The translations under genes and the position numbers were made by a program. Of a stretch of DNA of 64,000 nt, positions 13,082 through 60,448 are shown one piece after another. The stretch comes from Reichenbachiella sp. (GTDB taxonomy: Bacteria > Bacteroidota > Bacteroidia > Cytophagales > Cyclobacteriaceae). Each line of letters starts with the position of its first letter. The stretch's first letter is position 1. The DNA lies in the NCBI RefSeq assembly GCF_033344935.1, contig NZ_JAWPMM010000001.1:792001-856000 (forward strand), written 5' to 3'. The notes below the pieces were generated by a model, which made no database searches, was not told where the DNA came from, and saw nothing but the letters and a program-made list of their open reading frames with translations.

Positions 13082-13178
13082 TATTTGGTTCGTAAAGAAA
13101 CCAACTGTTATTTGGATGTTTGTTAATTTATCAACAGAAAATATCAAGATATCATAATATTTATAGACTTTCGTTGAA

Positions 13179-16843: not shown

Positions 16844-16856
16844 CTCAGAATTTTTG

Positions 16857-17498: not shown

Positions 17499-17614
17499 TT
17501 GGACTATTTGTCGTAAATCAGCTATATTGATAGACTGTTGACAAATTTCTACCTGCAAGGGTTACAATTAGTTACATTGTCGTATTTAAACTAGAGCGAG
17601 AGCTTGAAGGAGTC

Positions 17615-18154: not shown

Positions 18155-18159
18155 GAAAA

Positions 18160-40389: not shown

Positions 40390-40863
40390 TTAAAAGATAT
40401 TGTGATATACTTTCATTTTGTCGGCCGTAGATTTCAACAACCAGTTTTGTTTGTACTCATCTTTAGATAAATAGTGATACCTCGCACCATTGGCTATTTT
40501 CTTCACTTTTATGTACAGCATGGGGCGGTAAGACATCTCATCGTGTTCTGAGCTTGCAATAGACAATTGATATTCTTTGGATTGGTCAATAAGCGTAAGT
40601 ACCAGACCGTTATTATTATCCTTGCTCTCTACCCAACCATTGATTTGAGACCGATCAAGTAACAATGGCACCATGCCTTTGAACTTCATCTGAGTAGGAT
40701 CAGGTAGTATTAGCATATCCGAGTAGTCATATGCACTAGACTCAATAGCAGCTGTGCCTGGGTCAAACCACTCGCGATCAGTAGAGGCCATGTTCCCCAT
40801 GACATAAATAGTTGATCGTGGAAACTTCATTTTCATCAAGAAGCCCATTTTCGTTATTGTCAT
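40390..40863 (-). CDS. C-terminal half of a frameshifted lipoprotein
   Basis: The frame codes for 157 residues if read from its first ATG, but the part with protein-like composition starts near GNMASTDREWFDPGTAAIES. It continues as a beta-rich domain (MLILPDPTQMKFKGMVPLLL, then QLSIASSEHDEM) without a known family. It overlaps the preceding lipoprotein frame on the same strand by 86 bases. Moving one base in the GGGG run of CATGGGGAACATGG joins CHG of the upstream frame to NMAS here, giving one longer lipoprotein. Pseudogene, sequencing error and programmed shift are all possible. Confidence 0.55.
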   Translation of the reverse strand: MTITKMGFLMKMKFPRSTIYVMGNMASTDREWFDPGTAAIESSAYDYSDMLILPDPTQMKFKGMVPLLLDRSQINGWVESKDNNNGLVLTLIDQSKEYQLSIASSEHDEMSYRPMLYIKVKKIANGARYHYLSKDEYKQNWLLKSTADKMKVYHNIF

Positions 40864-41068
40864 TTCCTGCTTTCAATAAAAAGCCACCGTTTGGGCAATT
40901 GTCGTTTCCCTCAATGGTTTCAGTTTCGATGATGCTATCCATCATCGCGTCATCAATTTCTGGTTCCTCTGTAAGAGGTTCTTCCATGCAACCCATCATG
41001 AGTGAAACAAGAAATATTGCCGTCAAGACGAGTAATAGTTTAGATGTGTTATCAGTTTTCATTTTCAT
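40778..41068 (-). CDS. N-terminal half of a frameshifted lipoprotein with DUF7151-like repeat
   Basis: The 96-residue frame starts with a lipoprotein signal (lipobox LMMGC, C27). After an acidic spacer it has one DUF7151-like repeat: CPNGGFLLKAGNDNNENG, then LLDENEVSTINYLCHG. The repeat resembles a calcium-binding loop (D-N-N-E-N-G) between two cysteines. The frame stops a few residues after the repeat, while the next frame continues with a folded-looking domain, which points to a frameshift. An ATG three codons downstream is an alternative start. Confidence 0.6.
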   Translation of the reverse strand: MKMKTDNTSKLLLVLTAIFLVSLMMGCMEEPLTEEPEIDDAMMDSIIETETIEGNDNCPNGGFLLKAGNDNNENGLLDENEVSTINYLCHGEHGLY

Positions 41069-42638: not shown

Positions 42639-43184
42639 TTATTTGGCAAACATCTCCACAATGACTGAGTTGTCATTATATAACTTCTCCAAAGTGTAGT
42701 TGCGAAGTGTCAAACCTCTTTCATCTGCTAGCAATTTCAATTGGTTTTCCACTTTTTCCGAATTGGGCATAACAAGAGGGTGCATAGTCAATGCGGCTTG
42801 AAAGGTAGTTTGACCTTCTATCTCCAGTACTTGTAGTCCGGATGGAATCATAGACATTTCATTTTCTAATAAAACACCAACAAATCTTCGACTTTCATAC
42901 TCGCCAAGGGTATCGTCTTGGTAGTTGACAATAGAAAGAGTGCCCGTGAGCGAACCATCAGCGATATATCCTTTCATTTCTTCAAACAAGAAATGCTCCT
43001 CCTTGGAAGTGAGCTTGCCATATACCTCTTTTCCTGCCAGGCTGTATTTGTTGTTTCGAGACACAGCCGTTTGAATTTCTTCAAATCCACCAAGATTGAA
43101 ATAAATGCTCAAAAGGATAACGAATAAGGCTATAAAGGAGACAAACCAATAGACGTATTTTTTGTGGAGAGTGCTAAGCCGCAT
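42639..43184 (-). CDS. single-pass membrane protein of unknown function
   Basis: The 181-residue protein has one N-terminal membrane helix (YWFVSFIALFVILLSIYF) and a soluble part of about 145 residues with no recognised family. Its stop begins at the base right after the amidohydrolase stop. Low confidence applies to function only; the frame is long, well composed and starts with ATG. Confidence 0.8.
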   Translation of the reverse strand: MRLSTLHKKYVYWFVSFIALFVILLSIYFNLGGFEEIQTAVSRNNKYSLAGKEVYGKLTSKEEHFLFEEMKGYIADGSLTGTLSIVNYQDDTLGEYESRRFVGVLLENEMSMIPSGLQVLEIEGQTTFQAALTMHPLVMPNSEKVENQLKLLADERGLTLRNYTLEKLYNDNSVIVEMFAK

Positions 43185-43243
43185 ATTTTTCTATTAATGA
43201 CTTCAAAACTAAAGAATATACACGTGAGAATTGAATAGAAATA

Positions 43244-43272
43244 AAAAAGTCAGCGCATTGCGTTGACTTTCC
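43244..43272 (-). terminator. rho-independent terminator, leftward
   Basis: On the minus strand AAGTCAACG pairs with CGCTGACTT across a CAATG loop and is followed by TTTT. It could end transcripts coming from the peptide genes to the right. Confidence 0.6.
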
Positions 43273-43280
43273 ATTCTTAA

Positions 43281-43463
43281 GTGACCTTGTCAGGGTTATT
43301 TCATGATCCTTCGCGTTCCAAATTCCGAAAGCCAAACCACGATTCTTTTGAAGAATCTGGTTTTATTGTTTATGTGCCTTCACTAAAACAAGTTTTGCTT
43401 AGTCTATAAACAACAAAACCCCGGCAATTTGCCGGGGTTTGTCTTTCCTCGTGACCTTGTCAG
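43281..43463. repeat. 14-base direct repeat pair enclosing hairpins
   Basis: GTGACCTTGTCAGG occurs at about 43281-43294 and again at about 43450-43463. Between the copies are two hairpins, one of AAACCA-C-GATTCTT/AAGAATC-TGGTTT (43334-43363) and the strong CCCCGGC/GCCGGGG terminator (43412-43442). No reading frame is seen. The whole 388-base gap 43185-43572 is non-coding and structured; it could encode a small RNA or mark an insertion scar. Confidence 0.45.
43412..43442 (-). terminator. strong terminator downstream of peptide genes (both strands)
   Basis: AAACCCCGGCA and TGCCGGGGTTT form an 11-bp stem around AATT and are flanked by A and T runs on both sides. It can therefore stop transcription in either direction. 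It lies 131 bases past the stop of the last peptide gene. Confidence 0.8.
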
Positions 43464-43572
43464 GATTCAAATATTTACATTTAATGCACTGACAATTAAT
43501 ACTTTACTAAATATAAAAATAGACACGGTATCATATGGGTATATTAAAATCCCAAAAGATTATAATACACTA

Positions 43573-43779
43573 TTAACAATCGCATATATACCAATAATGA
43601 GTTCCATCAGAACACATTCTACATCCTGGAAATGGTGATGGACTGCTACAATCGTTGCAAAATCCTCCACTTCCAGGGTTTTCATCATCCCAAGATGGTG
43701 GGTAGGCATAGCTACCTACAAACTTGTTAACGTCACTGTCAGACAATTTAAATTTCTCAAACTTTCGAAGTAAGCTCAT
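43573..43779 (-). CDS. cysteine-rich secreted peptide precursor, copy 1
   Basis: The 68-residue precursor has a leader RKFEKFKLSDSDVNKFVGS of the double-glycine type, with GS (residues 22-23) in place of GG. The invariant YAYPPSWDDENP and a core with six cysteines at 41, 44, 53, 56, 66 and 68 follow. The core pattern is CxxC, FPGCRxC and YWYxCDC. It resembles the Bacteroidota natural-product precursor leaders cleaved by C39 peptidases, and a C39 exporter is encoded downstream on the same strand order. The mature product is likely a three-disulfide peptide of about 45 residues; its activity is unknown. Confidence 0.85.
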   Translation of the reverse strand: MSLLRKFEKFKLSDSDVNKFVGSYAYPPSWDDENPGSGGFCNDCSSPSPFPGCRMCSDGTHYWYICDC

Positions 43780-43900
43780 TGTATTTATTAATTTAAGTTT
43801 AGATTAACTTATTTTTATTAGAATAGTTATAATGAATTATTAAGTAGTCAAAATTTTTTATATCTCTAACCACTTTTTTTGATAAGCATCCTCTGAAGGA

Positions 43901-44119
43901 TCAACAATCACAAAGATACCAATATGCTCCCGTTCCTGCTTCTGAGCATAGTCTACACCCTGGAAACATTTGCGAAGCACTACAACTTAGACAACCGATA
44001 TGATTAGGATTTCCAGGGTTTTCATCATCCCAAGATGGTGGGTAGGCATAGCTACCTACAAGATTATTGACGTCTTTATCAGACAACTTAAACTTCTCAA
44101 ATTTCCGAAATGAGCTCAT
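43901..44119 (-). CDS. cysteine-rich secreted peptide precursor, copy 2
   Basis: The 72-residue precursor is a tandem paralogue of its two neighbours. It has a RKFEKFKLSDKDVNNLVGS leader, the same YAYPPSWDDENP block and six cysteines at 43, 46, 55, 58, 70 and 72. The spacing between the first four cysteines equals that of the other copies. The variable part is the loop between cysteine 4 and 5 (SEAGTGAYWYL). The 5' leader ahead of the ATG (AATCTAA, TTAAGTATT) resembles that of copy 1, so the genes probably arose by local duplication. The product is likely exported by the adjacent C39 transporter. Confidence 0.85.
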   Translation of the reverse strand: MSSFRKFEKFKLSDKDVNNLVGSYAYPPSWDDENPGNPNHIGCLSCSASQMFPGCRLCSEAGTGAYWYLCDC

Positions 44120-44268
44120 AATACTTAATAATTTAGATTAGATTAAAATTTCTTCTTTTTAGTAGTAGTTAGATATTGTGAAATGAGAATTAGTATTTAA
44201 TTACCTAACATCTTAATTACTTTTTTTTTCTATGTATTGAATTTACATTGGCAAAATGCATCATTTGA

Positions 44269-44490
44269 TTAACCACAATCACAAATATACCAATAGACAT
44301 TTTGGCCTGCTATACAACAATGTCTACATCCAGGAAACTGTGTTGAGGAACCGCATGGCTGACAATAAACACCCTCTTCTCCTGATGGATTCTCATCATC
44401 CCAAGATGGTGGGTAGGCATAACTGCCTACAAACTTGTTTGCGTCGTTATTAGATAATTGAAATTTCTCAAATTTTTGGAGTGACTTCAT
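44269..44490 (-). CDS. cysteine-rich secreted peptide precursor, copy 3 (seven cysteines)
   Basis: The 73-residue precursor shares the leader (QKFEKFQLSNNDANKFVGS) and the YAYPPSWDDENP block, but its core has a seventh cysteine next to the fourth (C58-C59 in CRHCCIAG). The other cysteines are 43, 46, 55, 70 and 72. An odd cysteine allows a free thiol or an interpeptide bridge. It also ends with a glycine after CDC. It is the copy nearest to the exporter gene and the first in the direction of transcription. Confidence 0.85.
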   Translation of the reverse strand: MKSLQKFEKFQLSNNDANKFVGSYAYPPSWDDENPSGEEGVYCQPCGSSTQFPGCRHCCIAGQNVYWYICDCG

Positions 44491-44605
44491 AGTACAAGTT
44501 AAGTTAAGTCTTATATTTTTATTTTAAAATAACAAAGCAACTAATATAATAACTTATTGTTTAAATATCCAAATTGCTCTAGTTGTATTAGTTTTTTCTA
44601 TTAAA

Positions 44606-46783
44606 CTATTTGCCTAATTCTAGTTGATTTTTTATTAAGTCAAAATATATTCCCTTCTTATTAGTTAATTCCTCATGATTACCGAGTTCAACAATAGAGC
44701 CTTTATCTAGTACAACTATTTGATCGGCATTTTTCACTGTACTAAGTCTGTGAGCAACAATAATAGTGGTCCTCCCTTTACTGAAGGTTTCAATTTGTTC
44801 CGTGACATTTTTCTCATTTCTTGAGTCTAGTGCACTAGTAGCTTCGTCAAAAATTAGAAAATCGGGATTCTTATATACCGCACGAGCTATCATGATTCTT
44901 TGTTTTTGCCCTTGGCTTAATCCTTGCCCCTCTGCACCTATTTTAGTCTTATGACCTAATGCCAATGAGTCAATATATTCTTTGATGTTAGCAATTTCTA
45001 TTGCATTGATGAATTTATCATAATTTGGTGTGTCACTAGAAATTGAAATATTATCCAAAATTGTATCATTGAACAAAAAACCGTCTTGCATAACCACCCC
45101 ACAATTTTCTCTCCATTTTTCACTATTTAAGGTTTGTAAATTTTGAGAACCAACATGAATACTTCCGTTGTTTGGTTCATAAAATTTTAATAATAGTTTG
45201 ATAAGCGTTGTTTTACCGCTCCCACTTATTCCTACTATAGCTGTGGTCTTATCTTTTGGAATTTCTAAAGTGAGGTCTTTTAGAATCCATTCGCTAAATT
45301 GTCCTTCATATTTAAACCACAAATTTTTAATTATTATAGAATCATATTGATACTGCGTACTCAATTGATTTTTAGTGTGATCCTCATCTTTCTTATTATG
45401 AATTTCTCCTAGACGCTCAAGGCTAATTTGTGCATTTTGAGCTTCTTGAATAAAGGTAATTAATTGTTGAAGAGGACTATTGAGCTGTCCTAAAATTTGA
45501 GTGGTAGCTAACATCATTCCTAATGTCATTTCTCCATCTAATACTTCTTTAGCAGAGAAAAAAAGAATAAGAATATTCTTTAACTCATTAATAAAAGAGC
45601 CTCCAGAATTTTGAATTTGATCTAATGATAGACTTGCTCTGCTTACATTGAAAAGTTTTGTTTGGATTCTTTCCCATTCCCATCTTTTGATTTTGCTTGC
45701 ATTATTCAATTTAATTTCTTGCATTCCTTGGACTAATTGAATCTCTGCGTTTTGGCTAGCTGCAGACTCGGCAAATCTATTGTAGTCAATTACTCGACGT
45801 TTCTTCAAGAAAATTAAAATCCAAGCAAAATATATTGCAGACCCAATTATGAAAGTAAAAAATATTTGAGTATTGTATAAGAAGAGTATTAAACCAAATA
45901 TTATGATATTAAAAATAGCAAACAAAGAGTTTAATGAAGAGGATGTAAGAAATTGTTTGATTCTATCATGGTCACGAATTCTTTGCATTATATCACCCGT
46001 GTTTTTTCTATCAAAAAAAGATATAGGCAGATTCATTAATTTTATTAAAAAATCTGAGATTACAGCAATATTCAGTCTCGTCGTAATATGAAGTAGAATC
46101 CAACTTCTTATTAGAGCTATAGCCGTTGATCCTGTGAAGAACATTAATTGTGCTATAAGTACCAAGTAAATAAAACTGATGTTGTTATATTGAATGCCTA
46201 CATCTACAAGGGACTGGGTTAATAAGGGTAATACCAAACTTAGCAGACTACCCGCTGTCATACCTAAAATTAACTGAAATATAAGCCGAATGTGAGGCTT
46301 TAAATAGTTTGAAAAGTATGTTAAAGTTGCTTTTGATGAGCTTTTTATGCTGTCAATTTCATAAAATTCAGGAGTAGGGTCTAATAATATGGCTATACCT
46401 TCTACTCTAGAATTGTTCCATAACTGCATAAATTCTTCTATCTTATATGAAACTAAGCCAATAGCTGGGTCTGCAATAAAAACTTTTCTTCTACTCACGC
46501 GATAAAGAACAACAAAATGATTCTGCTGCCAATGAAGAATACATGGGAAAGGCTTTTCTTCCTTTAAGGTTTCAAAGGGTATTTGCACAATCATCGACTT
46601 GAAACCGATGTCTTCAGCCGCCGTGCTTATATCTTTTAATGAAGCTCCGAGTTTATTGACTCCAGCTTTTTTTTGTAAATATTCATTTGATAAATTTTTG
46701 CCAAAATATTTGGCTATCATTCGCAAGCATGCAGCTCCACAATCGGTTGTGTCTGTTTGTGGCAGAAAAGTAAAATTGGCCAT
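44606..46783 (-). CDS. C39-peptidase ABC exporter for the cysteine-rich peptides
   Basis: The 725-residue protein is a peptidase-containing ABC transporter. The N-terminal C39 cysteine peptidase has catalytic C15 in DTTDCGAAC, H89 in QQNHFVVLY and D105 in IADPA. An exporter membrane domain (about 160-440) and an ATPase with Walker A GISGSGKTT (around residue 521) and signature LSQGQKQR complete it. Such PCATs cut leaders after a GG-like site and export the core. The three precursor genes next to it are the obvious substrates. Signature LSQGQ in place of LSGGQ is a mild deviation. HlyD is encoded immediately upstream. Confidence 0.93.
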   Translation of the reverse strand: MANFTFLPQTDTTDCGAACLRMIAKYFGKNLSNEYLQKKAGVNKLGASLKDISTAAEDIGFKSMIVQIPFETLKEEKPFPCILHWQQNHFVVLYRVSRRKVFIADPAIGLVSYKIEEFMQLWNNSRVEGIAILLDPTPEFYEIDSIKSSSKATLTYFSNYLKPHIRLIFQLILGMTAGSLLSLVLPLLTQSLVDVGIQYNNISFIYLVLIAQLMFFTGSTAIALIRSWILLHITTRLNIAVISDFLIKLMNLPISFFDRKNTGDIMQRIRDHDRIKQFLTSSSLNSLFAIFNIIIFGLILFLYNTQIFFTFIIGSAIYFAWILIFLKKRRVIDYNRFAESAASQNAEIQLVQGMQEIKLNNASKIKRWEWERIQTKLFNVSRASLSLDQIQNSGGSFINELKNILILFFSAKEVLDGEMTLGMMLATTQILGQLNSPLQQLITFIQEAQNAQISLERLGEIHNKKDEDHTKNQLSTQYQYDSIIIKNLWFKYEGQFSEWILKDLTLEIPKDKTTAIVGISGSGKTTLIKLLLKFYEPNNGSIHVGSQNLQTLNSEKWRENCGVVMQDGFLFNDTILDNISISSDTPNYDKFINAIEIANIKEYIDSLALGHKTKIGAEGQGLSQGQKQRIMIARAVYKNPDFLIFDEATSALDSRNEKNVTEQIETFSKGRTTIIVAHRLSTVKNADQIVVLDKGSIVELGNHEELTNKKGIYFDLIKNQLELGK

Positions 46784-46784
46784 A

Positions 46785-48056
46785 TTAGTAGTTAAGTATG
46801 GTTCTTAGGCGGTTAAAAAATCTATCAAAAAGACTGATATCTTCAGTAACTATTTCCATTGTCCCTGTCATATCTTGAAAGAAATTTATACTCTTGTCAT
46901 AATTTGTCTTCATTCCTTCAGGAAATTCCACTTTAAGCAAGTATCCTTCTTCTTTTCTAATAATGGAAATATGACTTACAATGCCTATTAGAGATCCATA
47001 TTCTAGGCTCGGATAATCATTCAATTTTATAATAACTTTATCCTTTAAGCTAATTTTCCCATAACCAAGTTCGCTGATATATGAATAGCCGAATACTTTG
47101 TTGTCTAGAGGGATGAGGGTTGCAAATTCATCTCCCTTATTTATAAATTGATTCTTTTCCCATAACTTTTGGTAAGTTAACTTCCCATATATCGAGGCTC
47201 TTAGAATATAGTTATACTCCCATGATGAAATTAGAGATTTTAGGATATTCAGGTTTCCCTGTATTTTCATTTGATAGTCAAGGTTATTATGTAGTATGGT
47301 AAAGGCTACTGATTGTCGCTCATTCAACTTAGTTTTTAAAGTCGATTCTAAGGAAATCAAGTCTATCTTTGTAGTTGCTAAATAATTTGATTCCGTAATC
47401 AAATTCATCTTAGATTTTTCATACTCCTTTTCTGAAAGTGCTTTTATACTGAACAGTGAAGAGTCTTTTTTATGCCACTTTTTAGTCAAATCTAACTTCT
47501 CTCGATTTACTTTAATTAGTATTTTTTTTTGTTCGATTATACTTTTAAGATATTCTATCTCATCTTTAATTTTATTATCTGCTAAAACTTCCGTGTTGTT
47601 AATTAAATAGATGTTGTACTTTTTAATATTTAAATTAAATTCATCGAATGCGTTTTGAATATTACCGAGATGTTTCAACTCAATCGTTTCAAATTGATTA
47701 AAATGCAAACTAGTTTTCCATTTTTCGTATTTGTCCAAATAATTTTTCAGATCATTTATACTTTCATAGTTAATTTCATTTTCTACTTCACAAAGTATTT
47801 CACCTTGATTAACAAGCTGACCTTCTTCGACTGAAATATTTGCAATATATCCAGATGAATTAGCTAAAATTGAAATTGGTTTGTTTGTCGCCGATATTGT
47901 GATAGAGGAAGAAATGACTTCAGGGTATTTTACCAATTTTGACATGCCTAAGGCAAAAATTATTAATATAAGAATAATATGTGAACCTGATCGTGTTAAC
48001 CATGAAGGCGGAGCACCAATAATTTCTTCTTTAGAAACGATTTTGAGATTTGACAT
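46785..48056 (-). CDS. HlyD-family periplasmic adaptor
   Basis: The 423-residue protein has one N-terminal membrane helix (about residues 24-42) and a biotinyl-lipoyl-like half motif around GYIANISVEEGQLVNQG. A long coiled coil (about 95-275) and a beta-barrel end follow. It links the inner-membrane C39 exporter, whose gene starts one base after its stop, to a TolC-like outer-membrane channel. No TolC gene lies in the cluster, so a shared one elsewhere is expected. Confidence 0.92.
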   Translation of the reverse strand: MSNLKIVSKEEIIGAPPSWLTRSGSHIILILIIFALGMSKLVKYPEVISSSITISATNKPISILANSSGYIANISVEEGQLVNQGEILCEVENEINYESINDLKNYLDKYEKWKTSLHFNQFETIELKHLGNIQNAFDEFNLNIKKYNIYLINNTEVLADNKIKDEIEYLKSIIEQKKILIKVNREKLDLTKKWHKKDSSLFSIKALSEKEYEKSKMNLITESNYLATTKIDLISLESTLKTKLNERQSVAFTILHNNLDYQMKIQGNLNILKSLISSWEYNYILRASIYGKLTYQKLWEKNQFINKGDEFATLIPLDNKVFGYSYISELGYGKISLKDKVIIKLNDYPSLEYGSLIGIVSHISIIRKEEGYLLKVEFPEGMKTNYDKSINFFQDMTGTMEIVTEDISLFDRFFNRLRTILNY

Positions 48057-48290
48057 ATGAATGTTTCTGATAAATGTGCAAGATTAACTGAATAAATTTT
48101 AATTTGTCATATTATTCTGGGGTAGAAATAGTTCTAAAATTGATATTTTATTCAAATAATAAAAACTCATATTTGCGGACAATTAATCGGAATAAATTTA
48201 TTTACTTGCAGCAGGGTATTCTTAACTTTTGATCACATCATAACACTAGACTCCTTTTTTAGAATATTTTAGATAGCACTTTTTACTCCT

Positions 48291-49910
48291 ATGACCCCTA
48301 ACTCAGCTCATACACTTCTTCGTATTTTGTTTAAATCAGCTAAAGTTGAATACTCTGACAGTTTCTTGGCTAAATCAGTCAAATTTTATCGTAGTACGAT
48401 GAATATGAAGGCTTTAGAAGATGTGCTTAATGATTACAATGTCGAAACTATGATTGCTAAACTTCCTTTCGAGGAATTGCAAAATGTTGACTTACCTATT
48501 ATTGCTGAAATAAGCACTTCAGATTCTAAAACTGAAATAGTTGTCATTGATTCAATTGATGATGAAAATGTCTATTTAAAAAAATCAGATGCAAGTAGCC
48601 TCAAATTAGCTCACGGGGATTTCACAAAATGTTGGTCTGGAATTGCAATGTTGAATGATTTCTCATCGTTCTTTGAGCACAATTTCGATGCAAATAAAAA
48701 GTTGTTTTTTAGCAAGAGTACAAATGAAATTTCAAAGAAATTTTCTATAAGTGGATTGCTGATTTTGACTTTATTAATTGTGCTAAATTATTCAGGAGGA
48801 ATCATTTTTTCATTGTTAATAAGTTTAAAAGTAATTGGGTTGTTTATTGGTTTGAAATTAATAGAGGAGAATTTGGGTCTATCTAGTGAATTTACCGGTA
48901 AATTTTGCACACCTTCAAAGCGTATTGATTGTCAGGCTGTTTTAAACTCCAAAGGGGGCTCAATTCTAGGAGTATTCAATTTATCAGACCTAGGGGCTAT
49001 TTATTTTTTATCTACTTTTCTTTTTTCACTATTTTCTATACTAGACAATAACACTTCATTAGTGTATTCTGTTTTATACTTGAATTATCTTGCATTACCC
49101 ATAATTTTATATGCAATTCTGTATCAGTTTTTTGTAGTAAAAAAATTGTGCCCATTATGTATTGCGTTACAAGTACTTATTATAATAGAATTTATCCTTG
49201 GAATAATTTATGGCGACATGGATCCGGTAAATGTGGATATGATTCTGCGGATTTCTGTATACTTACTATTATCGAATATATTTATCGTCATATACAAAAA
49301 ACTAATAACTAAAGAGATAAATGAAGAACTTCTTGAAAAGAAGGAGTTCTACAACAAAAGAAATTTTGAATTTTTAAAATTCGTTTTTTCCTCTGGACAG
49401 AAAACTTCAGAATTAAACAGCGAAATAAAAAATTATCTTTCTTTTGTCGAAGAAGGAAATGAACTCATAGTAGTTTTATCACCTTTATGTCAGCCTTGTT
49501 CTGTATTTTATGCTGAATTAGAAAAGTTCATTGCTTATTTTGATGAGAGAATAAACGTAAGATTTGTGTTTATCGAACAAAATCGGAATAATCCATTAGG
49601 TACAAAAGTTGTAAATTATATAAATGATTATTTAAGAGTAGAACCAGATTTAGTCAAAAGAAGAAAATTTATTGGAGATTATTTTTCGATTAAAAATAAA
49701 AATTCAGAGTCTATTCAAAAATGGATGTCTATTGGATCATTGAATAAAGTGGATGCATTTGAAAGTACATTGGAAATAGAATGGTGTAAAGAAAATGGAA
49801 TTCATTACACACCGGCTCTTATCTTAAATAATCATATTATTCCAGCAGAATTTGGATTGTTGGAAATTAGAAGGTACTTGGATAAATTTCAAGAAGAAGA
49901 GAGATTATAA
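48291..49910 (+). CDS. C39-like/VKOR/thioredoxin fusion, disulfide-forming membrane enzyme
   Basis: The 539-residue protein has three parts. Residues about 1-130 resemble a C39 peptidase fold without the catalytic DCG-cysteine, ending in DFTKCWSGIAML. A VKOR membrane domain follows (about 145-340) with loop cysteines C206 and C214, the serine in NSKGGS and the CPLC redox pair C287/C290. A DsbA/thioredoxin-like domain at the C-terminus has C400/C403 in CQPC. This matches the known VKOR group with an N-terminal C39-like domain. It probably oxidises the cysteine-rich peptides made beside it, taking electrons to quinone. It starts 234 bases from and divergent to HlyD. Confidence 0.88.
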   Translation: MTPNSAHTLLRILFKSAKVEYSDSFLAKSVKFYRSTMNMKALEDVLNDYNVETMIAKLPFEELQNVDLPIIAEISTSDSKTEIVVIDSIDDENVYLKKSDASSLKLAHGDFTKCWSGIAMLNDFSSFFEHNFDANKKLFFSKSTNEISKKFSISGLLILTLLIVLNYSGGIIFSLLISLKVIGLFIGLKLIEENLGLSSEFTGKFCTPSKRIDCQAVLNSKGGSILGVFNLSDLGAIYFLSTFLFSLFSILDNNTSLVYSVLYLNYLALPIILYAILYQFFVVKKLCPLCIALQVLIIIEFILGIIYGDMDPVNVDMILRISVYLLLSNIFIVIYKKLITKEINEELLEKKEFYNKRNFEFLKFVFSSGQKTSELNSEIKNYLSFVEEGNELIVVLSPLCQPCSVFYAELEKFIAYFDERINVRFVFIEQNRNNPLGTKVVNYINDYLRVEPDLVKRRKFIGDYFSIKNKNSESIQKWMSIGSLNKVDAFESTLEIEWCKENGIHYTPALILNNHIIPAEFGLLEIRRYLDKFQEEERL

Positions 49911-49934
49911 CTCACATTATTTAATCTAATTTAG

Positions 49935-50825
49935 ATGAAAGACTTAAATTTATACATCATTATTAGTCTATTACTTGCCGTTTTTTCCTGTGGATTTGGC
50001 AATAGCAATGAAAATAATAATGATGATGCCATGGTATTAAGAACTTCAAAAATTAAATTGGAGTATTCATTTCTTTTGGAAACACAACTTGCATATTTAG
50101 GTCTTCTAGATGTAACAAAACTTAATACACAGGAAGACATTGATAAAATAGACATTCGTTCAGCAAAAATTCCCTCAGATAATTATGAAGGTCATATCGT
50201 AATAATAGATGCGAATAAAAATGGAAGATTTGAGTACGATTCTATTGATTTTATTGGACTTACCGGAAGTACCGAGAATTTTATGGTAGATCGAATAAAT
50301 CTTACGATCAGTAGGAAACCAATTAAACTGAAAATTGGGGATGAAAAATATGAATTGAAAATTAAAATGGATGGAAATGAATTAGAATTGTTAAGAATAA
50401 ACGCTAATAACTCAACTTGTGATTTGTCATTTCCATATATTTTACCTAAAAAAAATTATATCAATTTGACGGTTGGGGCAAAAATCTATAAGGATAATAA
50501 TAAACCGACTCTAGTGGAGTTTTGGGGTACTTGGTGCAAGCCATGTATTAAAATAACACCAGAATTGAAGAGGTTAAAGAATGACTTTGAAAATAAGTTC
50601 AATCTAGTGAGTATCAACTACAAAGACAAGGACATGGATAGAGTCAAGTCATTTATTTTGAAGTTTGAAATGGATTGGGATCATATGTTGGCTGATGAAA
50701 AATTGATTAAAGATTTTGGTAACCCTAATTTCGTTCCTTGTGGTATCCTATTTGATGAAGATGGTTTTTTACTCAAGTATGGAGTGACATTGCCTGAAGT
50801 AAGGGAGTATTTGGAGCGTAAATAG
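49935..50825 (+). CDS. TlpA-type thioredoxin lipoprotein
   Basis: The 296-residue protein starts with a lipoprotein signal (lipobox AVFSC) and a beta-rich N-terminal domain of about 160 residues. A thioredoxin fold follows with active site WCKPC (C201/C204) and the cis-proline near VPCGILF. TlpA-like proteins reduce or isomerise disulfides in the periplasm. It lies 24 bases after the VKOR fusion and is probably cotranscribed. It may reshuffle wrong disulfides in the exported peptides, but a role in general thiol balance is possible too. Confidence 0.88.
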   Translation: MKDLNLYIIISLLLAVFSCGFGNSNENNNDDAMVLRTSKIKLEYSFLLETQLAYLGLLDVTKLNTQEDIDKIDIRSAKIPSDNYEGHIVIIDANKNGRFEYDSIDFIGLTGSTENFMVDRINLTISRKPIKLKIGDEKYELKIKMDGNELELLRINANNSTCDLSFPYILPKKNYINLTVGAKIYKDNNKPTLVEFWGTWCKPCIKITPELKRLKNDFENKFNLVSINYKDKDMDRVKSFILKFEMDWDHMLADEKLIKDFGNPNFVPCGILFDEDGFLLKYGVTLPEVREYLERK

Positions 50826-51057
50826 TCGCTTGATTGTCTAATGATATAAGTTTGATTCATATATACTTTTCTACTTTAAACAAGTGATATTACTTAACAT
50901 AAGCCAAAATTATATAACAAAGGGAACCTCGATTATGGTCAATCAAAGCACTTTTTGGTGTTTCATGAGAACGTGATTGGATTATTCTTAGATGGCCGTC
51001 AGAATGTCAGTGAAAAATTAAAATGTAAATAATTGAGCTTTTATTTGAGCTCAATGA

Positions 51058-52587
51058 TTAATTAAATTGAATCGGGATCCTAAAGAATTTATCCTTGATT
51101 TCTCTGAAGATGTTAGGTCTTAAAGAGTTGTATAATTTTCTGCACTTCCATTCAGCAATTGCATCAAAAGCACATTGTTCTAAAAATTTTTGAACTTGGT
51201 CATAATTCTTAAAAGTGTCAAAGTACGGATGAATTAGATTTACAACTCCAATTATCTCATTTTCATTACCAGAAAAATCGAGATAAAGGTAAGGTTCTAG
51301 ATCACTATTTTTTGCGCTAAAGAACTTCACGCTTAACTTCCTTGGAGCAAGGTCTACTTCAGCGGTAAAAAAAGGAGTCTTTGCACTTTTAATTGAATTT
51401 ACTTCATTAAGAAATATTTCTTCGAGTTCTTCTTCCCTGCCTTTATGAGCTAAGTATTCTTCAACAGCGTTATAAAAATCTTTTGATTCTACTATTTGCT
51501 TTACTGGCCCAACAGCTTGAACTATGCTTGCCTCTAGATTAAGGCCTGTTTTTGTGGGAGAGCTTTCATTCTCTGCTATTTCAATAGCTTCCTGTGCATA
51601 ATCTAATAGTTTGTCTGCCAGTTCATTTTCGTCGTCTCCTTCCCATATTATTGCATCTTTTTGATGGCTGACATCAAACCCTGTTAAATTTAAAATTCCT
51701 ATTACACGTTGATTGACCAAAGTATTGGAACCTCCAAGTTGGTGTCCAAAAATCGTTTCGGGTTTGTAAGCGGCTGGAGGACAAACAACAACTCTATCAT
51801 TCATTTGTATTGTAAAACCTGCTTTTTCTCGACTTCCAGGTAATATGGCAGAGACCCATCCTTCTATTTGCTTTGGTTGGGTATTAGCTTCTCCTATGGA
51901 AAATGAGAATGATTTTTTGTACTTTTCACCAGTTTTAGTAATGTACAAGCCTTCTTCAGCATCAAACTGTTCTAATTCAGATCCTTGAAATTTAATAATT
52001 ACTTCATTATTGTTGATGTCTAAATAATAAATTCTTTCAAGATAGTTTTTAATTTTTCTAATTGTATTACCATGAATTACCCTGTGTAAATCATGGATTT
52101 CTATAATTGTATAGTGGTCATTAGCATTCGCCGATGTTTCAAGGATACTTATAGAATCGTCTCCATTTTCGATAATTTCATTGACATCAACTGTGCAACT
52201 AAACTCTTTATCTATTCCAAGCATACTAGTACGAATTGACCAACGATCACCAAACCAACATGCTGCCGTTTTTAGCCCCAGGCCATACTTTGACCTTCCT
52301 TGAGAATATTTTGTATCTCCAATATGTAATGCATGAGTTAATCTGTCAAGATCCATTCCCATCGCATTGTCTTCAATTGACAAGTGTGAGTTCTTTCTAG
52401 AGTAATCTATTATGACTTCTAGACATTTCGATTCTGAAAATGCACTGTCCAACGCACTTTTGTTATTCAAATATGATTGAGTACTATTATCTATAAACTC
52501 TGCAAAGGCATACCATGGTTTATAAGATAACCTTTTGTAGGTTGATATTATGTTTGTGCCGACATTCAGATTTGCTATGTGTTCCAT
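51058..52587 (-). CDS. MORC/MutL-like GHKL ATPase of a restriction-type cassette
   Basis: The 509-residue protein has a GHKL ATPase at the N-terminus: N-box EFIDNS (E30-N34), G1 DNAMGM (73-78) and G2 GLGLKTAA (102-109). A second domain follows (WVSAILPGSREKAGFTIQMN), similar to the S5-like transducer of MutL/MORC proteins. GHKL ATPases of this kind are reported in bacterial restriction-modification loci alongside nucleases and methyltransferases. The gene is two bases after the nuclease gene and downstream of the methyltransferase, so it is probably a DNA clamp or translocation component of this cassette. Confidence 0.82.
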   Translation of the reverse strand: MEHIANLNVGTNIISTYKRLSYKPWYAFAEFIDNSTQSYLNNKSALDSAFSESKCLEVIIDYSRKNSHLSIEDNAMGMDLDRLTHALHIGDTKYSQGRSKYGLGLKTAACWFGDRWSIRTSMLGIDKEFSCTVDVNEIIENGDDSISILETSANANDHYTIIEIHDLHRVIHGNTIRKIKNYLERIYYLDINNNEVIIKFQGSELEQFDAEEGLYITKTGEKYKKSFSFSIGEANTQPKQIEGWVSAILPGSREKAGFTIQMNDRVVVCPPAAYKPETIFGHQLGGSNTLVNQRVIGILNLTGFDVSHQKDAIIWEGDDENELADKLLDYAQEAIEIAENESSPTKTGLNLEASIVQAVGPVKQIVESKDFYNAVEEYLAHKGREEELEEIFLNEVNSIKSAKTPFFTAEVDLAPRKLSVKFFSAKNSDLEPYLYLDFSGNENEIIGVVNLIHPYFDTFKNYDQVQKFLEQCAFDAIAEWKCRKLYNSLRPNIFREIKDKFFRIPIQFN

Positions 52588-52589
52588 AA

Positions 52590-53474
52590 TTATAAATACC
52601 TCAGTTCTAATCTATTCTCTCTAAACACTAATGACACTTTTTTGGTCAATGTTGGAAGTGGAAACCCGACACCTATATAGAATAGTTTGACATGTTTAGT
52701 TTTTTTTTCAATTCTCCATCTGGTAGGCTCTTGATCAACTATGATTTGTAGCTCATCACCTGAATTCCTGTCATAGAATATTTTAGATCCATTTTTTAGG
52801 ATTAGACAATTGTTTAGAAGATCGATATCTAAATATCTTTCTTTAATTATTTCGGAAAATGCATCTCCATCATTGATTCTGAAAAGCTCTTGATTGTTCT
52901 CATCATTGTAAATTTGATATGTACAATATAAACATCGAATTTTTTCTTCTTTAAATCTGATTCGCCATGTTGGAGGAACATGTTCGGCCATTAAAACTAC
53001 GTGAGCGGTTTTTGTCTGAAGCAATTTTTCTAAATTTTCATAATCTTTAAAAAATGGATCAATATTATTTATTTGAGTTTTAATGTAATCAATTTCATCT
53101 ATTATTGATTTAAGGACATAATTTTGAAAAGTGCAAAGTTGCTCAATTGCATGGCCAATACCAGGTTTGATAAGCTCCAGTTCTACAATAAACCATGTTT
53201 GTAGTGATTTATTGATGATCATTATGTCGGGGGCATTCTTATGGATTCCATTAAGGTTCTGTATATCCTTTTTATACGGAATTATATAAGATTTATCACC
53301 AATGATTTGCCTAAGTCCAGAAATGACTGATTTTTCATATTCGGTTTCAGAATAATGTGCACCGCCGGATAGTTTAATAAACTCTCTAGAATTGAGAATC
53401 CTATGAGCCTTACTCAATGATTCGGGTGATTCGTTTAAATTGAAATCAGGTCTGCTATGAAATATTATTGCCAT
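52590..53474 (-). CDS. putative PD-(D/E)XK restriction-type endonuclease
   Basis: The 294-residue protein is not a clear match to a named family. It carries a nuclease-like core: an upstream glutamate helix (YSETEYEKSVISGLRQIIG), then D83 in APDIMII, then E98-x-E100 in WFIVELELIKPG, spaced as in the PD-(D/E)XK fold. The second acidic residue occupies the usual lysine position. The C-terminal half (about 150-294) is beta-rich and probably target-reading. Its place between the methyltransferase and the MORC-like ATPase, with six- and two-base gaps, supports a restriction role. Confidence 0.65.
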   Translation of the reverse strand: MAIIFHSRPDFNLNESPESLSKAHRILNSREFIKLSGGAHYSETEYEKSVISGLRQIIGDKSYIIPYKKDIQNLNGIHKNAPDIMIINKSLQTWFIVELELIKPGIGHAIEQLCTFQNYVLKSIIDEIDYIKTQINNIDPFFKDYENLEKLLQTKTAHVVLMAEHVPPTWRIRFKEEKIRCLYCTYQIYNDENNQELFRINDGDAFSEIIKERYLDIDLLNNCLILKNGSKIFYDRNSGDELQIIVDQEPTRWRIEKKTKHVKLFYIGVGFPLPTLTKKVSLVFRENRLELRYL

Positions 53475-53480
53475 TGAAAA

Positions 53481-54416
53481 TCATAATTCCATGTTATCAG
53501 ACATTTTCAAAAAATCTGCTACTTTCTGAATCTTATTGAATCGTCCTAATGACCCATGAATATATTCCAGTGTGGGTTCTATCGAAGCCCAGTTTCGATT
53601 TAGTTTCTCTGCAACTGATCCTGTTGTGTTACTTCCTCCAAAAGGGTCAAGAATTAAATCATTTTCATTTGTCAAAAACTTTATGAAAAATTCGACTAAA
53701 CTTTCTGGCATTCTTGCGGGATGTGGTTGTAGGTTGTGGTTCTTGCAATATAATTGATAAGGAGTTCCTGATTGTGTATTTGCGGAAGAAATTACATTCG
53801 AAGGAATAGCTCCTTTGTTATCTGAAAGAAATGACTTTTCACCGATTGAATGTTCAGAAGGTCTAAAACCAGAATTATAGGAGCCGTTTTTCAAAAGTTT
53901 TTTCATAGAAGAGCTGTACTCGACTAGAACATTTTTATTATTTGCCTTTGGATTAGGAGTTTTACTCATCCACCATATATAGGTGAAAGAATCCTTGACT
54001 CGAGTTCTTTCAATGTTTACCCATTGTGCTGGAGTTGGAAGTTTGGCTGTATTATTCCAAATAAATTGTTGACACAAATAATAACCTCCTTCTTCAAGAA
54101 AGGCCAAAAGAGACTTTAAAGCTAATGTTGACATTACTGGTATTCCAGGCTCCCATGAATTTCCTACTTCAATTACTATCGATCCATCTGGCGTCAACAG
54201 GTTTCCAAAGTCTTTGGACAGTGATTTTATCCAATTAATATATTCATCTCCTTGAAAATTTCCGTATTTCTTCTTCCTGTTTAATGGGAATGGAGGGGAA
54301 GTGACAATCAAATTAATTTGGCCCCGATATTTGTCGAACTTCTTAGACTGTAAGGCGTCTTCTATCTTTCCGTTGTAACAGACTCCTAAATCAGTCTTGT
54401 ATGCAATTTTAATCAA
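53481..54416 (-). CDS. DNA methyltransferase (beta-type, N4-cytosine or N6-adenine)
   Basis: The 311-residue protein has the catalytic motif TSPPF at residues 39-43 and the AdoMet motif DPFGGSNTTG at 257-266. This catalytic-before-cofactor order is typical of beta-class amino-methyltransferases. The SPPF form is more often seen in N4-cytosine enzymes, but N6-adenine is not excluded. A variable region between (about 140-225) probably reads the target site. It heads the three-gene cassette and protects host DNA from the nuclease encoded downstream. Confidence 0.93.
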   Translation of the reverse strand: MIKIAYKTDLGVCYNGKIEDALQSKKFDKYRGQINLIVTSPPFPLNRKKKYGNFQGDEYINWIKSLSKDFGNLLTPDGSIVIEVGNSWEPGIPVMSTLALKSLLAFLEEGGYYLCQQFIWNNTAKLPTPAQWVNIERTRVKDSFTYIWWMSKTPNPKANNKNVLVEYSSSMKKLLKNGSYNSGFRPSEHSIGEKSFLSDNKGAIPSNVISSANTQSGTPYQLYCKNHNLQPHPARMPESLVEFFIKFLTNENDLILDPFGGSNTTGSVAEKLNRNWASIEPTLEYIHGSLGRFNKIQKVADFLKMSDNMEL

Positions 54417-54558
54417 TTTATAATAATATGCGTTTCAAATTCAATTTGCTAAGATACAAAATACAGCAAGTCCATTGACATTTGAACATGAAAAGAGGCA
54501 ATTTTGAATCATTACCAAAATTATTCGAATTTAGAAATGTAAATTATAATGAGAAAAT

Positions 54559-55332
54559 TTATAGAATCGGAAAAACAAAAGCCTGTCCTCCAGGATAATC
54601 AATAATCTCCAATTCTGATTGGCTGTTTTCTACAATCTTTTTGGTAACCGTACGACTTTTCAATTTGATATGAAATCTAATCTGATCGATCTTGCACTCA
54701 CCTTCAGAAATGATTTGAATGAAGGCATCAAATAATTCAGAGGATATATTCAGGTTCTTTTCATTACCACATTTTCTTCTACGACCTTTTGAAAATTGAA
54801 TTCTATTTTGGCTGTCAACGACAGCATTGTCAATAATAACAGAATCCTTTTGTTTGATAGCGCAATCATCATTTGAAGCCATCGAAGAAGCCAGTCTGCA
54901 AATATCTATTTGCAATTGCTGTAAGTCCTTTAAACCACACGATTCAAGTTTTGTCAAATCAGAAAAACAGAGGTTGGTTGGAAGCGAATATCCTTTATTT
55001 GTGAAGGACTGAAATCTAGATTTGAGTTTTACCTCTTTGGAGTCAACAAAATTGATGGTTTCTTTTTGGTCAAGTAAAATTGATTTCCATTTGTTTAGCG
55101 CCTCTTCACTAAACCACCATCTTGTGCCTATGGCAAAATCAGTTCTTCCAGTTAGTTGATCTTGTCCAAAATAAAATGTGTCGAATAGCTTATCATAGTT
55201 AGTTGTGCTAAATCCGTGTTTATTGGCGAAATGTAAAAACCCTTCAATAATCGGAGAAGGTAAGAAGTATTGGTTTTTTTCAGTTGTGATGATATAGTGG
55301 TCTTCTCTAAAGTTGTTGACATGGTAATGCAT
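54559..55332 (-). CDS. hypothetical protein of accessory block
   Basis: The 257-residue protein is not recognised. It has an aromatic-rich N-terminal part (YYFGQDQLTGRTDFAIGTRWWF-like features around residue 50-75), a lysine/arginine-rich GRRRKCGNEK patch and a predicted mixed alpha/beta end. No membrane segment or signal peptide is seen. It lies between the restriction-like cassette and the paralogue pair on the same strand and could belong to either. Confidence 0.7.
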   Translation of the reverse strand: MHYHVNNFREDHYIITTEKNQYFLPSPIIEGFLHFANKHGFSTTNYDKLFDTFYFGQDQLTGRTDFAIGTRWWFSEEALNKWKSILLDQKETINFVDSKEVKLKSRFQSFTNKGYSLPTNLCFSDLTKLESCGLKDLQQLQIDICRLASSMASNDDCAIKQKDSVIIDNAVVDSQNRIQFSKGRRRKCGNEKNLNISSELFDAFIQIISEGECKIDQIRFHIKLKSRTVTKKIVENSQSELEIIDYPGGQAFVFPIL

Positions 55333-55373
55333 TAATGCTTTGATATTTTATTTATTTATCGAACTGGAAAAAA

Positions 55374-55406
55374 GAAAAAAGACCAACTCAAAAAAGGGTT
55401 GGCCTT
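55374..55406 (-). terminator. rho-independent terminator after paralogue 1
   Basis: On the minus strand AAGGCCAACC pairs with GTTGGTCTT across a T-rich loop and is followed by TTTTTT. It lies about 110 bases past the stop of the 406-residue gene. Confidence 0.75.
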
Positions 55407-55513
55407 ATTTGAAAGTTTAATCTCAAATGGCTACTTGAATAGAATTACTGATTACGAAAGCGTTTCCAAATTAGAATTATTCTCTCACGTCTTAAAATTC
55501 GAACTTACCTATG

Positions 55514-56734
55514 CTAAATTGACTTCTTGTTGTTTGCTAATTTGGCCAAATTAACCCCATCTTGAAGATCAAAAGGTAAGAGTATATTAGACAAAGACTG
55601 TATACCTTTTTCGTTGCCTAGTTCTTTATGCTGAGCTAATTCGAGTAAATACCCGAGCTCCTCTATCTCTTTTGGAACTGCAAATAATAATTGAGTATTA
55701 CTGTCCTTACAACTTTCAAATATTTTGGCGAACAAATGATTATAAGCAGAAAGTTCAAATGATTTTTCAATTTGAATGCACCAACTTCTTAGGAACTGGA
55801 CCTTATTTATTGTTTCAAATACAAATAAAGGAAAGCTGAAAGCAGGTTGCTTATCAAGAAGACTTAAAACCTGCTTAGGCAATGATGTGAATTTTGCATC
55901 GCCTATTTTCCTTACTTCTTCTTTGTCCAATAGATGTACCAAAGAAGTATACTTTGACAATGGAATAAGGCGCTCCTTCAATCTTCTATCAATTGATTCT
56001 GGTATTGAAGCTACAGATATGACAAGTTCAAATTTGTTATCTGTGTAACCATCTTCACACAGTCTCCTATAGAAATCACGAAATATTGAATTAAGCGAGT
56101 CTTTCAAGACATTGATTTCAGTACGGTGAATTAAGCTTAAGGATAATAAACCAGACCATGAAAGATTATCTTTTAAAGAGTAAATTCTAATTGCTATTAC
56201 ATCGTGATCCCCAAAAAGCTTCTCAATGTCACCTACAAGCTTTAGAGCCTTTTTTAGCAAGAGGTCTTTAGTAGATTCCATTTTATTAGATTGACTAATC
56301 AAACGAACCACTTCATTAGTAACGATATCACTATTGACTTGATAAGCTGAGGCGGATCCGATTGCAATTTGAATGTCAAATTCAAGATCTTCAAAATAAA
56401 AAGAAATGTGATCTGTTAGAATTTTGTATAAGGAGAATCGACTGTAACGTCCTCTAGGAAGCGTAATATTCGCTGTTTCAACTACCTGGATGGAATCCTT
56501 TTTGAATAAAGTTATCATTAGAGGATATTGAAGAATAGTTTCATATGGGCCGACATGTCCATGACGTTTTAATTGCAACTCTCTATTTATTGAGTTGATT
56601 TGCGCATTGATGAAGTTTTCTGCCATTTGGAAGCGTGCATCTGTATTATTCTTGCCAAGTGTAAAGAATGGAGTAACTGATTGAATTTCGAGTATGCCAT
56701 ACTCAGCTACATCGCGCTTGTATAAATTTTTCAT
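55514..56734 (-). CDS. hypothetical protein, paralogue 1 of an unknown family
   Basis: The 406-residue soluble protein is not recognised. It shares its layout with the gene at 56965-58131: a PFFTLG-like N-terminal strand, a TLPRGRYSRFSLYKI block, a central IRIYSLKDNLSW segment, then FPLFVFETINKVQFLRSWC and ELGYLLELAQHKEL near the end. About 25-30 percent of positions appear shared by eye. The 5' leaders of both genes begin with AATCTTAAATA ahead of the ATG. No membrane segment or catalytic motif is obvious. Confidence 0.72.
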   Translation of the reverse strand: MKNLYKRDVAEYGILEIQSVTPFFTLGKNNTDARFQMAENFINAQINSINRELQLKRHGHVGPYETILQYPLMITLFKKDSIQVVETANITLPRGRYSRFSLYKILTDHISFYFEDLEFDIQIAIGSASAYQVNSDIVTNEVVRLISQSNKMESTKDLLLKKALKLVGDIEKLFGDHDVIAIRIYSLKDNLSWSGLLSLSLIHRTEINVLKDSLNSIFRDFYRRLCEDGYTDNKFELVISVASIPESIDRRLKERLIPLSKYTSLVHLLDKEEVRKIGDAKFTSLPKQVLSLLDKQPAFSFPLFVFETINKVQFLRSWCIQIEKSFELSAYNHLFAKIFESCKDSNTQLLFAVPKEIEELGYLLELAQHKELGNEKGIQSLSNILLPFDLQDGVNLAKLANNKKSI

Positions 56735-56895
56735 GACTTTATAATATTTAAGATTTTTGAAAAAATGACAACCACCTTGGTTGTCGATGCGATGTTAATT
56801 AGTAGCCAGGAAGGCAGCATAAGATTAGTATTGAACACTTTCTACATGCATGTATGTGCATTGATTTGCTTGATTGTTGAATTTGGTATTGAATA

Positions 56896-56924
56896 AAAAC
56901 AGCCATGACTAAATCACCATGGCT
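56896..56924 (-). terminator. rho-independent terminator after paralogue 2
   Basis: CAGCCATG and CATGGCTG form an 8-bp stem around about nine bases and are followed by TTTTT on the minus strand. It lies 41 bases after the paralogue 2 stop. A further 7-bp hairpin GACAACC/GGTTGTC lies at about 56767-56785. Confidence 0.75.
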
Positions 56925-56964
56925 GAAATAATCGAATAGTTCAATCTAGATTGTTAAACCTTGC

Positions 56965-58131: not shown

Positions 58132-58216
58132 AATTTTTGTATTTAAGATTTTACCAATCATTGCTGAATGGCGTTAAAAATTGAGTTGTAAAAAATGTTT
58201 GATAAGCCATGAGGCA

Positions 58217-59936: not shown

Positions 59937-60448
59937 AACCTACTTTTTAAGAGTGATATCACCAGCCACTTGACCGGCATTTTCGCAACGCTATAAAATG
60001 GTTTTGGAAGGGTTGTCAGCATTGAACCATGCACTTACCAGATGCGCATATTTGCACGCATTTGCTGGATGGCAGCTTTATCATTTACTCATATATGGAC
60101 AGATTTAGGCGTTGGTTTTTTAATTACAATATTTCATTGGAATGGGGAGGTTTTCATTTCTGTGCTTTTCTCTTATTCAATTTTTTTATTTTTCATGGAA
60201 TCGTTGAACTGCTGTAATGCTGTTGCAGAACTGTTCAATTCAACAGCAGGGGCAAGACGAACAGTTACAGTGCCGCAATCATTTGTTGCAATACAGTGTG
60301 GGCATAGCACGAAATTCAATAGTCAGTATAAAATCACGTGTTAAAGCAAATGGCAGCATTTGAAAGCAACTAAGTAGTGGGTCGTACAGAAGTAATGGAG
60401 TATCAAAAGATCTTTTTCAAATTTGGATAAGAATTAAAAATCCAAGTG
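59937..60448. other. 512-base divergent non-coding region, possible origin or control region
   Basis: Two short overlapping frames here (around 60029-60344) have poor protein-like composition and no start context, so they are not called. The region holds an 8-base perfect inverted repeat TGCTGTTG/CAACAGCA (60218-60225 and 60241-60248), an ATGCG/CGCAT inverted repeat near 60037-60060, and dense repeats of CTGTT. It separates the leftward ParB genes from the rightward helicase and polymerase-like genes. Such layouts often carry an origin, but no direct proof is present. Confidence 0.4.

Follow-up and report, generated by a model that had tools for sequence, protein, structure and literature searches.

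The cluster treated here lies in the window, meaning the whole 64,000-nucleotide stretch of DNA that was analysed, and was brought to attention by a sequence-only reading that saw in it three tandem cysteine-rich peptide genes. The minus-strand open reading frames of all three are confirmed, and with their neighbours they make up the following set.

43573..43779, minus strand: precursor peptide 1 (68 aa), with leader 43711-43779, YAYPPSWDDENP block 43675-43710 and six-cysteine core 43576-43674
43901..44119, minus strand: precursor peptide 2 (72 aa), with leader 44051-44119, YAYPPSWDDENP block 44015-44050 and six-cysteine core 43904-44014
44269..44490, minus strand: precursor peptide 3 (73 aa), with leader 44422-44490, YAYPPSWDDENP block 44386-44421 and seven-cysteine core 44272-44385
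44606..46783, minus strand: C39 peptidase-containing ABC exporter, 725 aa (Pfam Peptidase_C39 at 5.9e-35, ABC_tran and ABC_membrane)
46785..48056, minus strand: HlyD-type adaptor, 423 aa (Pfam and NCBIfam)
48291..49910, plus strand: fusion protein, 539 aa, with C39-like, VKOR and DsbA-like domains
49935..50825, plus strand: TlpA/ResA-like thioredoxin-fold protein (Pfam, NCBIfam), its N-terminus lipoprotein-type by eye

The exporter and adaptor genes are directly upstream of the peptide genes and on the same strand, with the fusion and TlpA-like genes divergent from all of these. That the peptides are precursors of secreted products, as had been proposed, is well served by their C39-type leader and by the adjoining exporter and adaptor; the stretch marked for them was too narrow, since exporter, adaptor and disulfide enzyme are all needed to interpret the peptides. 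The Bacteroidota promoter consensus (TTTG or TTG spaced to TAnnTTTG) has no match in 43001-51000.

The likeness among the three peptides is beyond chance. With peptide 2 as query against its own 4.88-Mb genome the other two are returned at E 1.2e-27 and 3.9e-27, with no further match at E<=10, and a MAFFT alignment has 39 of its 73 columns invariant. Among them are V21-G22-S23 at the end of a common 23-residue leader, the YAYPPSWDDENP block (Y24-P35) and six framework cysteines, together with K6-F-E-K-F10, L12-S13, F50-P-G-C-R54, Y62-W-Y64 and C66-D-C68. Shared leader, invariant block, FPGCR and YWY signatures (in all three) and cysteine pattern are as first described, the last being C-x2-C-x8-C-x2-C-x9-C-x-C in peptide 1, with x11 instead of x9 in peptides 2 and 3 and a seventh cysteine in peptide 3 only. 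The variability claimed for the core between the cysteines is also real, nonsynonymous difference being 0.33-0.39 there versus 0 in the 12-codon block. A 125-nt direct repeat covers part of each gene (the other copies have 86% and 78% identity to the first), and synonymous differences are high (pS 0.56-0.74 in the leader, 0.63-0.66 in the core). Within the block the DNA of peptides 1 and 2 is identical, with 0 of 7 synonymous sites changed versus about 19 of 32 in the rest of the gene (Fisher p 0.008); peptide 3 differs from each of them at 3 of the 7. By this pattern the copies are old and their loops freely diverged, with the block kept or homogenised; leader and core may have been joined by gene conversion or recombination, few sites being behind that suggestion.

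Leaders read by C39 peptidases have glycine at −2, glycine, alanine or serine at −1, and hydrophobic residues at −4, −7 and −12, a rule satisfied here by G22-S23, F/L20, V/A17 and L12, respectively, so that the leader looks like a C39 leader with a GS end in place of GG. The exporter's peptidase triad, C15, H89 and D105, is kept, with the same three residues in 30 of 30 aligned exporters, and export of the peptides by the C39 system is very probable. What would be released? Cleavage after S23 would yield peptides of 45, 49 and 50 residues with calculated average masses of 4989.4, 5351.9 and 5558.0 Da in the reduced state, predicted pI 4.05-4.1 and charges of −5.2, −4.2 and −5.2, an acidity atypical for membrane-active bacteriocins. 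The YAYPPSWDDENP block, following the cut, would most likely be the N-terminus of the mature peptide, and three disulfides are the best guess for the 45-50-residue product. A three-sequence AlphaFold model of the peptide is weak (mean pLDDT 58.9), with residues 41-68 at about 75-78 and most of the leader and block below 50; Foldseek matches of the core all have E>=3.7 and give it no fold.

The fusion protein is the most surprising part of the cluster, more so than the peptides. It has a C39-like domain (residues 1-125), six hydrophobic helices that include a VKOR domain (about 170-340) and a DsbA-like domain (about 357-537), with Pfam matches to VKOR (PF07884, 3.6e-16) and C39 (2.9e-8) and a weak one to thioredoxin. 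By fold, residues 1-130 match the C39 domains of PCAT1, ComA and HlyB, one of them leader-bound, and residues 357-537 match DsbA-like proteins. The VKOR part has support from PDB profile matches too; VKOR structures are not among the best 50 fold matches listed, a list filled by the two end domains, and 6wv8 stands at rank 33 in the other fold search. The VKOR cysteines are C206 and C214 (a loop pair) and C287 and C290 (a CxxC) in the helical bundle, the DsbA-like pair is C400xxC403, and these six redox cysteines are invariant in 43 of 43 fusions. Formation of the peptide disulfides by this protein is probable, and we say so with considerable confidence. Its N-terminal domain has the Peptidase C39 fold and is catalytically degenerate. 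The window's fusion is without Cys, His and Asp at the aligned triad places, and inspection by eye found the full triad in none of 41 scorable fusion N-domains and the aligned His in two, versus the full set in all the exporters; a script had flagged one of these domains (L054), in which the Cys sits off the catalytic place.

The fusion's membrane helices, placed by hydropathy and model, are at about 147-165, 170-194, 231-252, 257-283, 288-307 and 315-340, one more at the front than in the cyanobacterial enzyme, which we take to have five. With six, the C39-like domain, VKOR cysteines and DsbA-like domain share one side of the membrane in either orientation. Is it the inner side? In 108 different fusions the four segments on the active-site side have lysine plus arginine fractions of 0.223, 0.100, 0.229 and 0.216 and the three opposite segments 0.026, 0.028 and 0.034, which is 0.171 versus 0.030 overall, and the active-site side is the richer one in every one of the 108; for the VKOR loops alone this is so in 104, with four that do not follow. 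By the positive-inside rule this asymmetry argues for an active side facing the cytoplasm, an orientation towards which, resting as it does on a rule, we lean only somewhat. A cytoplasmic placement agrees with the presence of a leader-reading domain, as the leader is removed on export, and with the fact that the folded N-terminal domain, of 125 residues, starts without a visible signal sequence. The alternative is that the fusion faces the periplasm and that disulfides form after export, as with DsbA/DsbB or cyanobacterial VKOR, the C39-like domain then binding released peptide or partners. The solved Synechococcus VKOR-thioredoxin relatives (3kp9, 4nv6) do work outside the cytoplasm, as DsbA-like domains usually do, and it is DsbA-like proteins, most of them periplasmic, that the C-terminal domain resembles most closely in fold. 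The Synechococcus enzyme shares with the fusion four VKOR cysteines and a fused thioredoxin-fold domain, and is taken by us to lack a C39-like domain or the extra first helix; its lysine and arginine distribution is the opposite one, 5 in 24 residues (loops 2-3 and 4-5) versus 3 in 46 (loops 1-2 and 3-4), this being a comparison with one solved bacterial enzyme and with hand-set loop limits. A periplasmic fusion would have the charge distribution against it in all 108 cases, would need to pass its folded N-domain through the membrane tail-first, and would meet peptides from which the leader that a C39 fold can read had already gone; we regard it as a serious but rather doubtful alternative. 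Some hyperthermophilic archaea have inward-facing VKORs, which resemble the fusion in its proposed orientation, but those are general disulfide makers, whereas the window's fusion is joined to a leader-reading domain type and encoded in a peptide-export cluster.

Are the window peptides an isolated novelty? That reading was rejected, as VKOR-fusion loci with such peptides are frequent across Bacteroidota. Within the family, 53 of 295 genomes, its own included, contain relatives of the fusion (E<=1e-10); the other seven genomes of the genus have none, and in the genus VKOR is found in one of eight genomes, as a single copy at the window locus. Forty stretches around family relatives, some of which stop at contig ends, have a C39/ABC exporter in 29, HlyD in 27, a peptide passing a leader filter in 28 (with further GG-leader ORFs missed by it) and all three in 18. 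A scan of named genomes with a subgroup of the fusions kept 78 loci from 206 confirmed, in Algoriphagus, Cyclobacterium, Cecembia, Belliella, Flavobacteriaceae, Flavobacterium, Chitinophaga, Mucilaginibacter and others; of the 65 that span at least 12 kb, 52 have an exporter, 53 have HlyD, 53 have one or more filter-passing peptides and 42 have all three, with more than one peptide in 29 of the 53 peptide-bearing loci and a counterpart of the TlpA-like gene in 10 of the 65. The filter, a leader regular expression requiring two cysteines, misses unusual leaders and passes likely noise (one ORF each in L149 and L141), and its background rate is 0.16 per 10 kb (three ORFs in 193 kb of other sequence, among them one that looks like a true leader peptide), versus 0.82 per 10 kb in the loci.

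The 98 peptides that pass it in related loci have a median mature length of 46 and a median charge of −3.3 (64% at −2 or below); exactly six cysteines are present in 68, and the cut site is GG in 95, GA in two and GS in one. Like them, the window peptides have a C39-type leader and are acidic and rich in cysteine, with the same kind of exporter, adaptor and fusion alongside; unlike them, they have an invariant Pro/Asp block after the cut, the rare GS site, and a cysteine frame, 2-8-2-(9/11)-1, that is absent from the 98, whose frames are very diverse. Given the abundance of fusion relatives in the family and the six cysteines of most neighbouring peptides, the window peptides form a new subfamily within a widespread class that accompanies C39-like/VKOR fusions and for which we know of no family name. 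The diversity bears also on whether CxxC, CxxC and CxC hold zinc or copper, as in a metallophore or metal store. CxxC...CxxC spacing resembles that of zinc ribbons, and the aromatic YWY is close to the last cysteines; however, the enzyme type in the cluster is a disulfide-forming one, and related loci pair such an enzyme with many cysteine spacings, mostly in six-cysteine peptides, which leaves metal binding very improbable.

The original statement that the core belongs to no recognised bacteriocin family stands: for the three peptides there is no Pfam or NCBIfam model at E<=1, TIGR04149, TIGR04139, NHLP and lanthipeptide precursors included, and no PDB chain. No search found relatives of the cysteine core. 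An alignment of the three gave 112 pattern matches in genome contigs and 131 in viral contigs, none confirmed, the YAYPPSWDDENP block being outside the patterns used; three-peptide searches of plasmids gave one weak partial match (E 0.9) and of phages none. A profile search of 395 genomes of the phylum gave matches in seven genomes beyond its own at E<=0.01, with about four expected by chance; the best (7.7e-4) has an internal stop, and the seven are not accepted as relatives. A 98-genome search (own included) had its best outside match at E 0.027, attributed to chance. Among 341 genomes of the order, 27 others matched at E<=0.1 versus about 34 expected, and only those of g73, a genus in another family of the order, were taken as real: G369 (2.4e-5), G430 (6.7e-4), G079 (0.004) and G343 (0.02), E being per genome.

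The g73 peptides (G079, G343, G369 and G430; L112-L115) share the leader type, but differ from the window peptides in having a GG site and different cores. Some have a Pro/Asp stretch after the GG (AVAPIDGDDDNPGG, FIDIDPWDDGG, DVTTPPIDAHVD), and for this reason the most fitting interpretation of the YAYPPSWDDENP block is a conserved form of a flexible, acidic tail at the N-terminus of the mature peptide. With three of them added, the profile picks up leader relatives in six g73 genomes, from two to nine in each, the built-in sequences matching by construction, and weaker ones elsewhere. In G369 and G430, the nearest profile relatives, no exporter or fusion is within about 9 kb. L112:9823-10080 and L113:9585-9839 encode near-identical six-cysteine leader peptides, their chromosomal neighbourhood being the same in both genomes, and with neither exporter nor fusion within about 9 kb they may be orphan substrates or remnants of decayed loci. 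In L114 (G079; 9558-18974) there is an alternation of leader peptides and large genes, of about 610 aa, that have, by eye, a thioredoxin-like end; these large genes are a different partner for the same leader type, in a stretch with a C39 exporter and no VKOR fusion.

The leader itself can be placed among those of the fusion loci. A scoring matrix built on 61 main-subgroup leaders, the commonest type, does not recognise the window leaders: among 585 control ORFs, 120 equal or exceed the score of peptide 1, 137 that of peptide 2 and 25 that of peptide 3, which counts against that leader type. An ungapped comparison brought out a second type, roughly KFxKFx[LIVA]S...GG. In 40 loci fetched for the fusion alone (L114, L115 and L141 left out) the eight highest-scoring of 2871 small ORFs are without exception GG-leader peptides, found in L053, L054, L055 and L058, with GG aligned on the window's GS and scores of 26.7-42.0 versus 16.7 for the best of 744 control ORFs; in all, 23 of the 2871 exceed the control maximum, 12 of them with GG, GS or GA at the site, matches being mixed below the top eight. 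With L114 and L115 added the top 14 are all GG-leader ORFs, six of them from these two loci, which had been chosen for peptide likeness. Some relatives have CxxxC ... CxC, and a defensin reading was dropped because the window peptides are without CxxxC; signal-peptide defensins are treated in PMC11561630, the accessible part of which has no mention of 'Bacteroid-'. The literature matches listed, with subscription papers and preprints outside the scope, contained no paper on the C39-like/VKOR fusion or these peptides, and in the parts available VKOR is absent from PMC10352776, C39 and Bacteroidetes from the VKOR phylogeny paper PMC4555120 and an inverted-VKOR precedent from PMC5306230.

The nearest precedent in kind is that of the bacteroidetocins (class IIf), for which PMC6671954 describes how a C39/ABC exporter, a thiol oxidoreductase and a small cysteine-containing peptide can be antibacterial without an immunity gene; according to PMC8546649, their target is BamA. 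Could the window peptides be true members? Common to both are the phylum, a C39-type leader on a small precursor, the exporter, a thiol oxidoreductase in the cluster, cysteines expected to be disulfide-bonded and no apparent immunity gene. Bacteroidetocins, according to PMC6671954, have GG leaders of 15-16 residues, 42-48-residue products with four cysteines in founding members and a basic charge (+2 to +6), and a five-TM protein. Here the leader has 23 residues and a GS end, there are six or seven cysteines, the charge is −4 to −5, an HlyD adaptor is present, the oxidoreductase is the C39-like/VKOR/DsbA-like fusion, and no gene in 43573-50825 codes for a five-TM protein. Leader and cysteine frame refute membership, which we consider next to impossible.

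The setting of the cluster is that of a mobile element, for which the features are these.

43281..43297, plus strand: further partial attachment-repeat copy, from a repeat search
43451..43471, plus strand: 21-bp direct repeat of the tRNA-Arg(acg) 3' end, likely left attachment site of the cluster-bearing element
51058-52587: GHKL-ATPase gene with weak MzaB similarity, in the element
53481-54416: DNA methylase, in the element
58217-58993: DUF5131, in the element, a strong PADLOC candidate-defence match
L131:3270-3947: serine recombinase, within the element
L131:5562-6722: tyrosine integrase, adjoining tRNA-Arg

From the 21-bp repeat, about 100 bp from the peptide genes, and the integrase beside tRNA-Arg, the cluster is placed at one end of an integrative element of ~26.5 kb in tRNA-Arg(acg), which is intact at L131:6948-7022, beyond the window (counted on in window positions, its 21-bp end is at 69947-69967). 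ParB-like and VapE-like genes and two recombinases are also in the remainder of the element (window 51058-63672 and L131:1-6722). The two repeat copies within 43281-43471 are 170 bp apart, suggesting the remains of an earlier integration. The gene next after the cluster (42639-43184) is present in eight of eight genus genomes; no clean empty site was found, the flank of this conserved gene differing in G001-G004. G004, whose flanking gene is the most similar one among the genus relatives, has four identical attachment-like pieces of 22-29 nt within about 100 kb of its tRNA copy, and from these the tRNA-Arg site looks like a hotspot. In the same genome, in which no VKOR was found, the stretch of about 110 kb from conserved gene to tRNA-Arg copy (G004:C4:83051-195517) holds these four pieces and, at 146560, a C39 exporter.

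That the peptide locus is mobile and strain-specific would suit rivalry between bacteria, and this has to be weighed with the idea that the peptides are intercellular signals, three variants for different receptors. C39/ABC systems export pheromones too, ComC for example, the products here are acid and hydrophilic, and no immunity gene is recognised in the cluster. Signalling is nevertheless unlikely, as no gene of 43573-50825 has a Pfam match to a histidine kinase, response regulator or receptor domain, the fusion is on a mobile element and in one of eight genus genomes, and variable loops on a fixed frame would suit rivalry better. For an antibacterial role, taken by itself, we put the chances as even.

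The explanation that we favour as a whole, and hold to be reasonably probable, is of leader-guided, disulfide-stapled secreted peptides directed against competitors. Counting against it are the rarity of a GS site, the poor fit to the commonest leader type, the gene set that by the filter used is often not complete in related loci, the surroundings of G369 and G430, the acidity of the products, the lack of a recognised immunity gene and the weak peptide model. Two domains of C39 fold would recognise the precursor leader (residues 1-23, ending G22-S23). That of the fusion, catalytically dead, would dock the precursor, the attached DsbA-like/VKOR unit oxidising the cysteines of the docked molecule and passing electrons to membrane quinone, and with the fusion facing the cytoplasm folding would precede export. 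The live C39 domain of the exporter would then cut after GS, and the 45-50-residue product leave via ABC-HlyD and an outer-membrane channel encoded elsewhere. The mature peptide would have a flexible acid N-terminal tail (YAYPPSWDDENP) and a compact three-disulfide core with variable loops, and would act against competing, probably related, bacteria. For the particular order in which inward-facing oxidation comes before cutting and export, the chances are perhaps a little short of even.

Few secreted peptides of Bacteroidota have been characterised, and the surveyed loci look like a large, diverse and genetically marked set in which mostly six-cysteine peptides are accompanied by their own folding enzyme and exporter. 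If the favoured explanation is true, disulfide formation would be a dedicated leader-dependent modification of a large peptide class of the phylum, carried out by a topologically inverted bacterial VKOR. Cytoplasmic folding, if it occurs, would show how stable disulfides are made by a bacterium in a reducing compartment, and the fusion could then be a portable tool for disulfide peptides.

Elsewhere in the window, 40390-41068 on the minus strand has two overlapping ORFs, one of 157 aa and one of 96 aa whose start is lipoprotein-like and which carries DUF7151; the two may be a single gene split over two frames.
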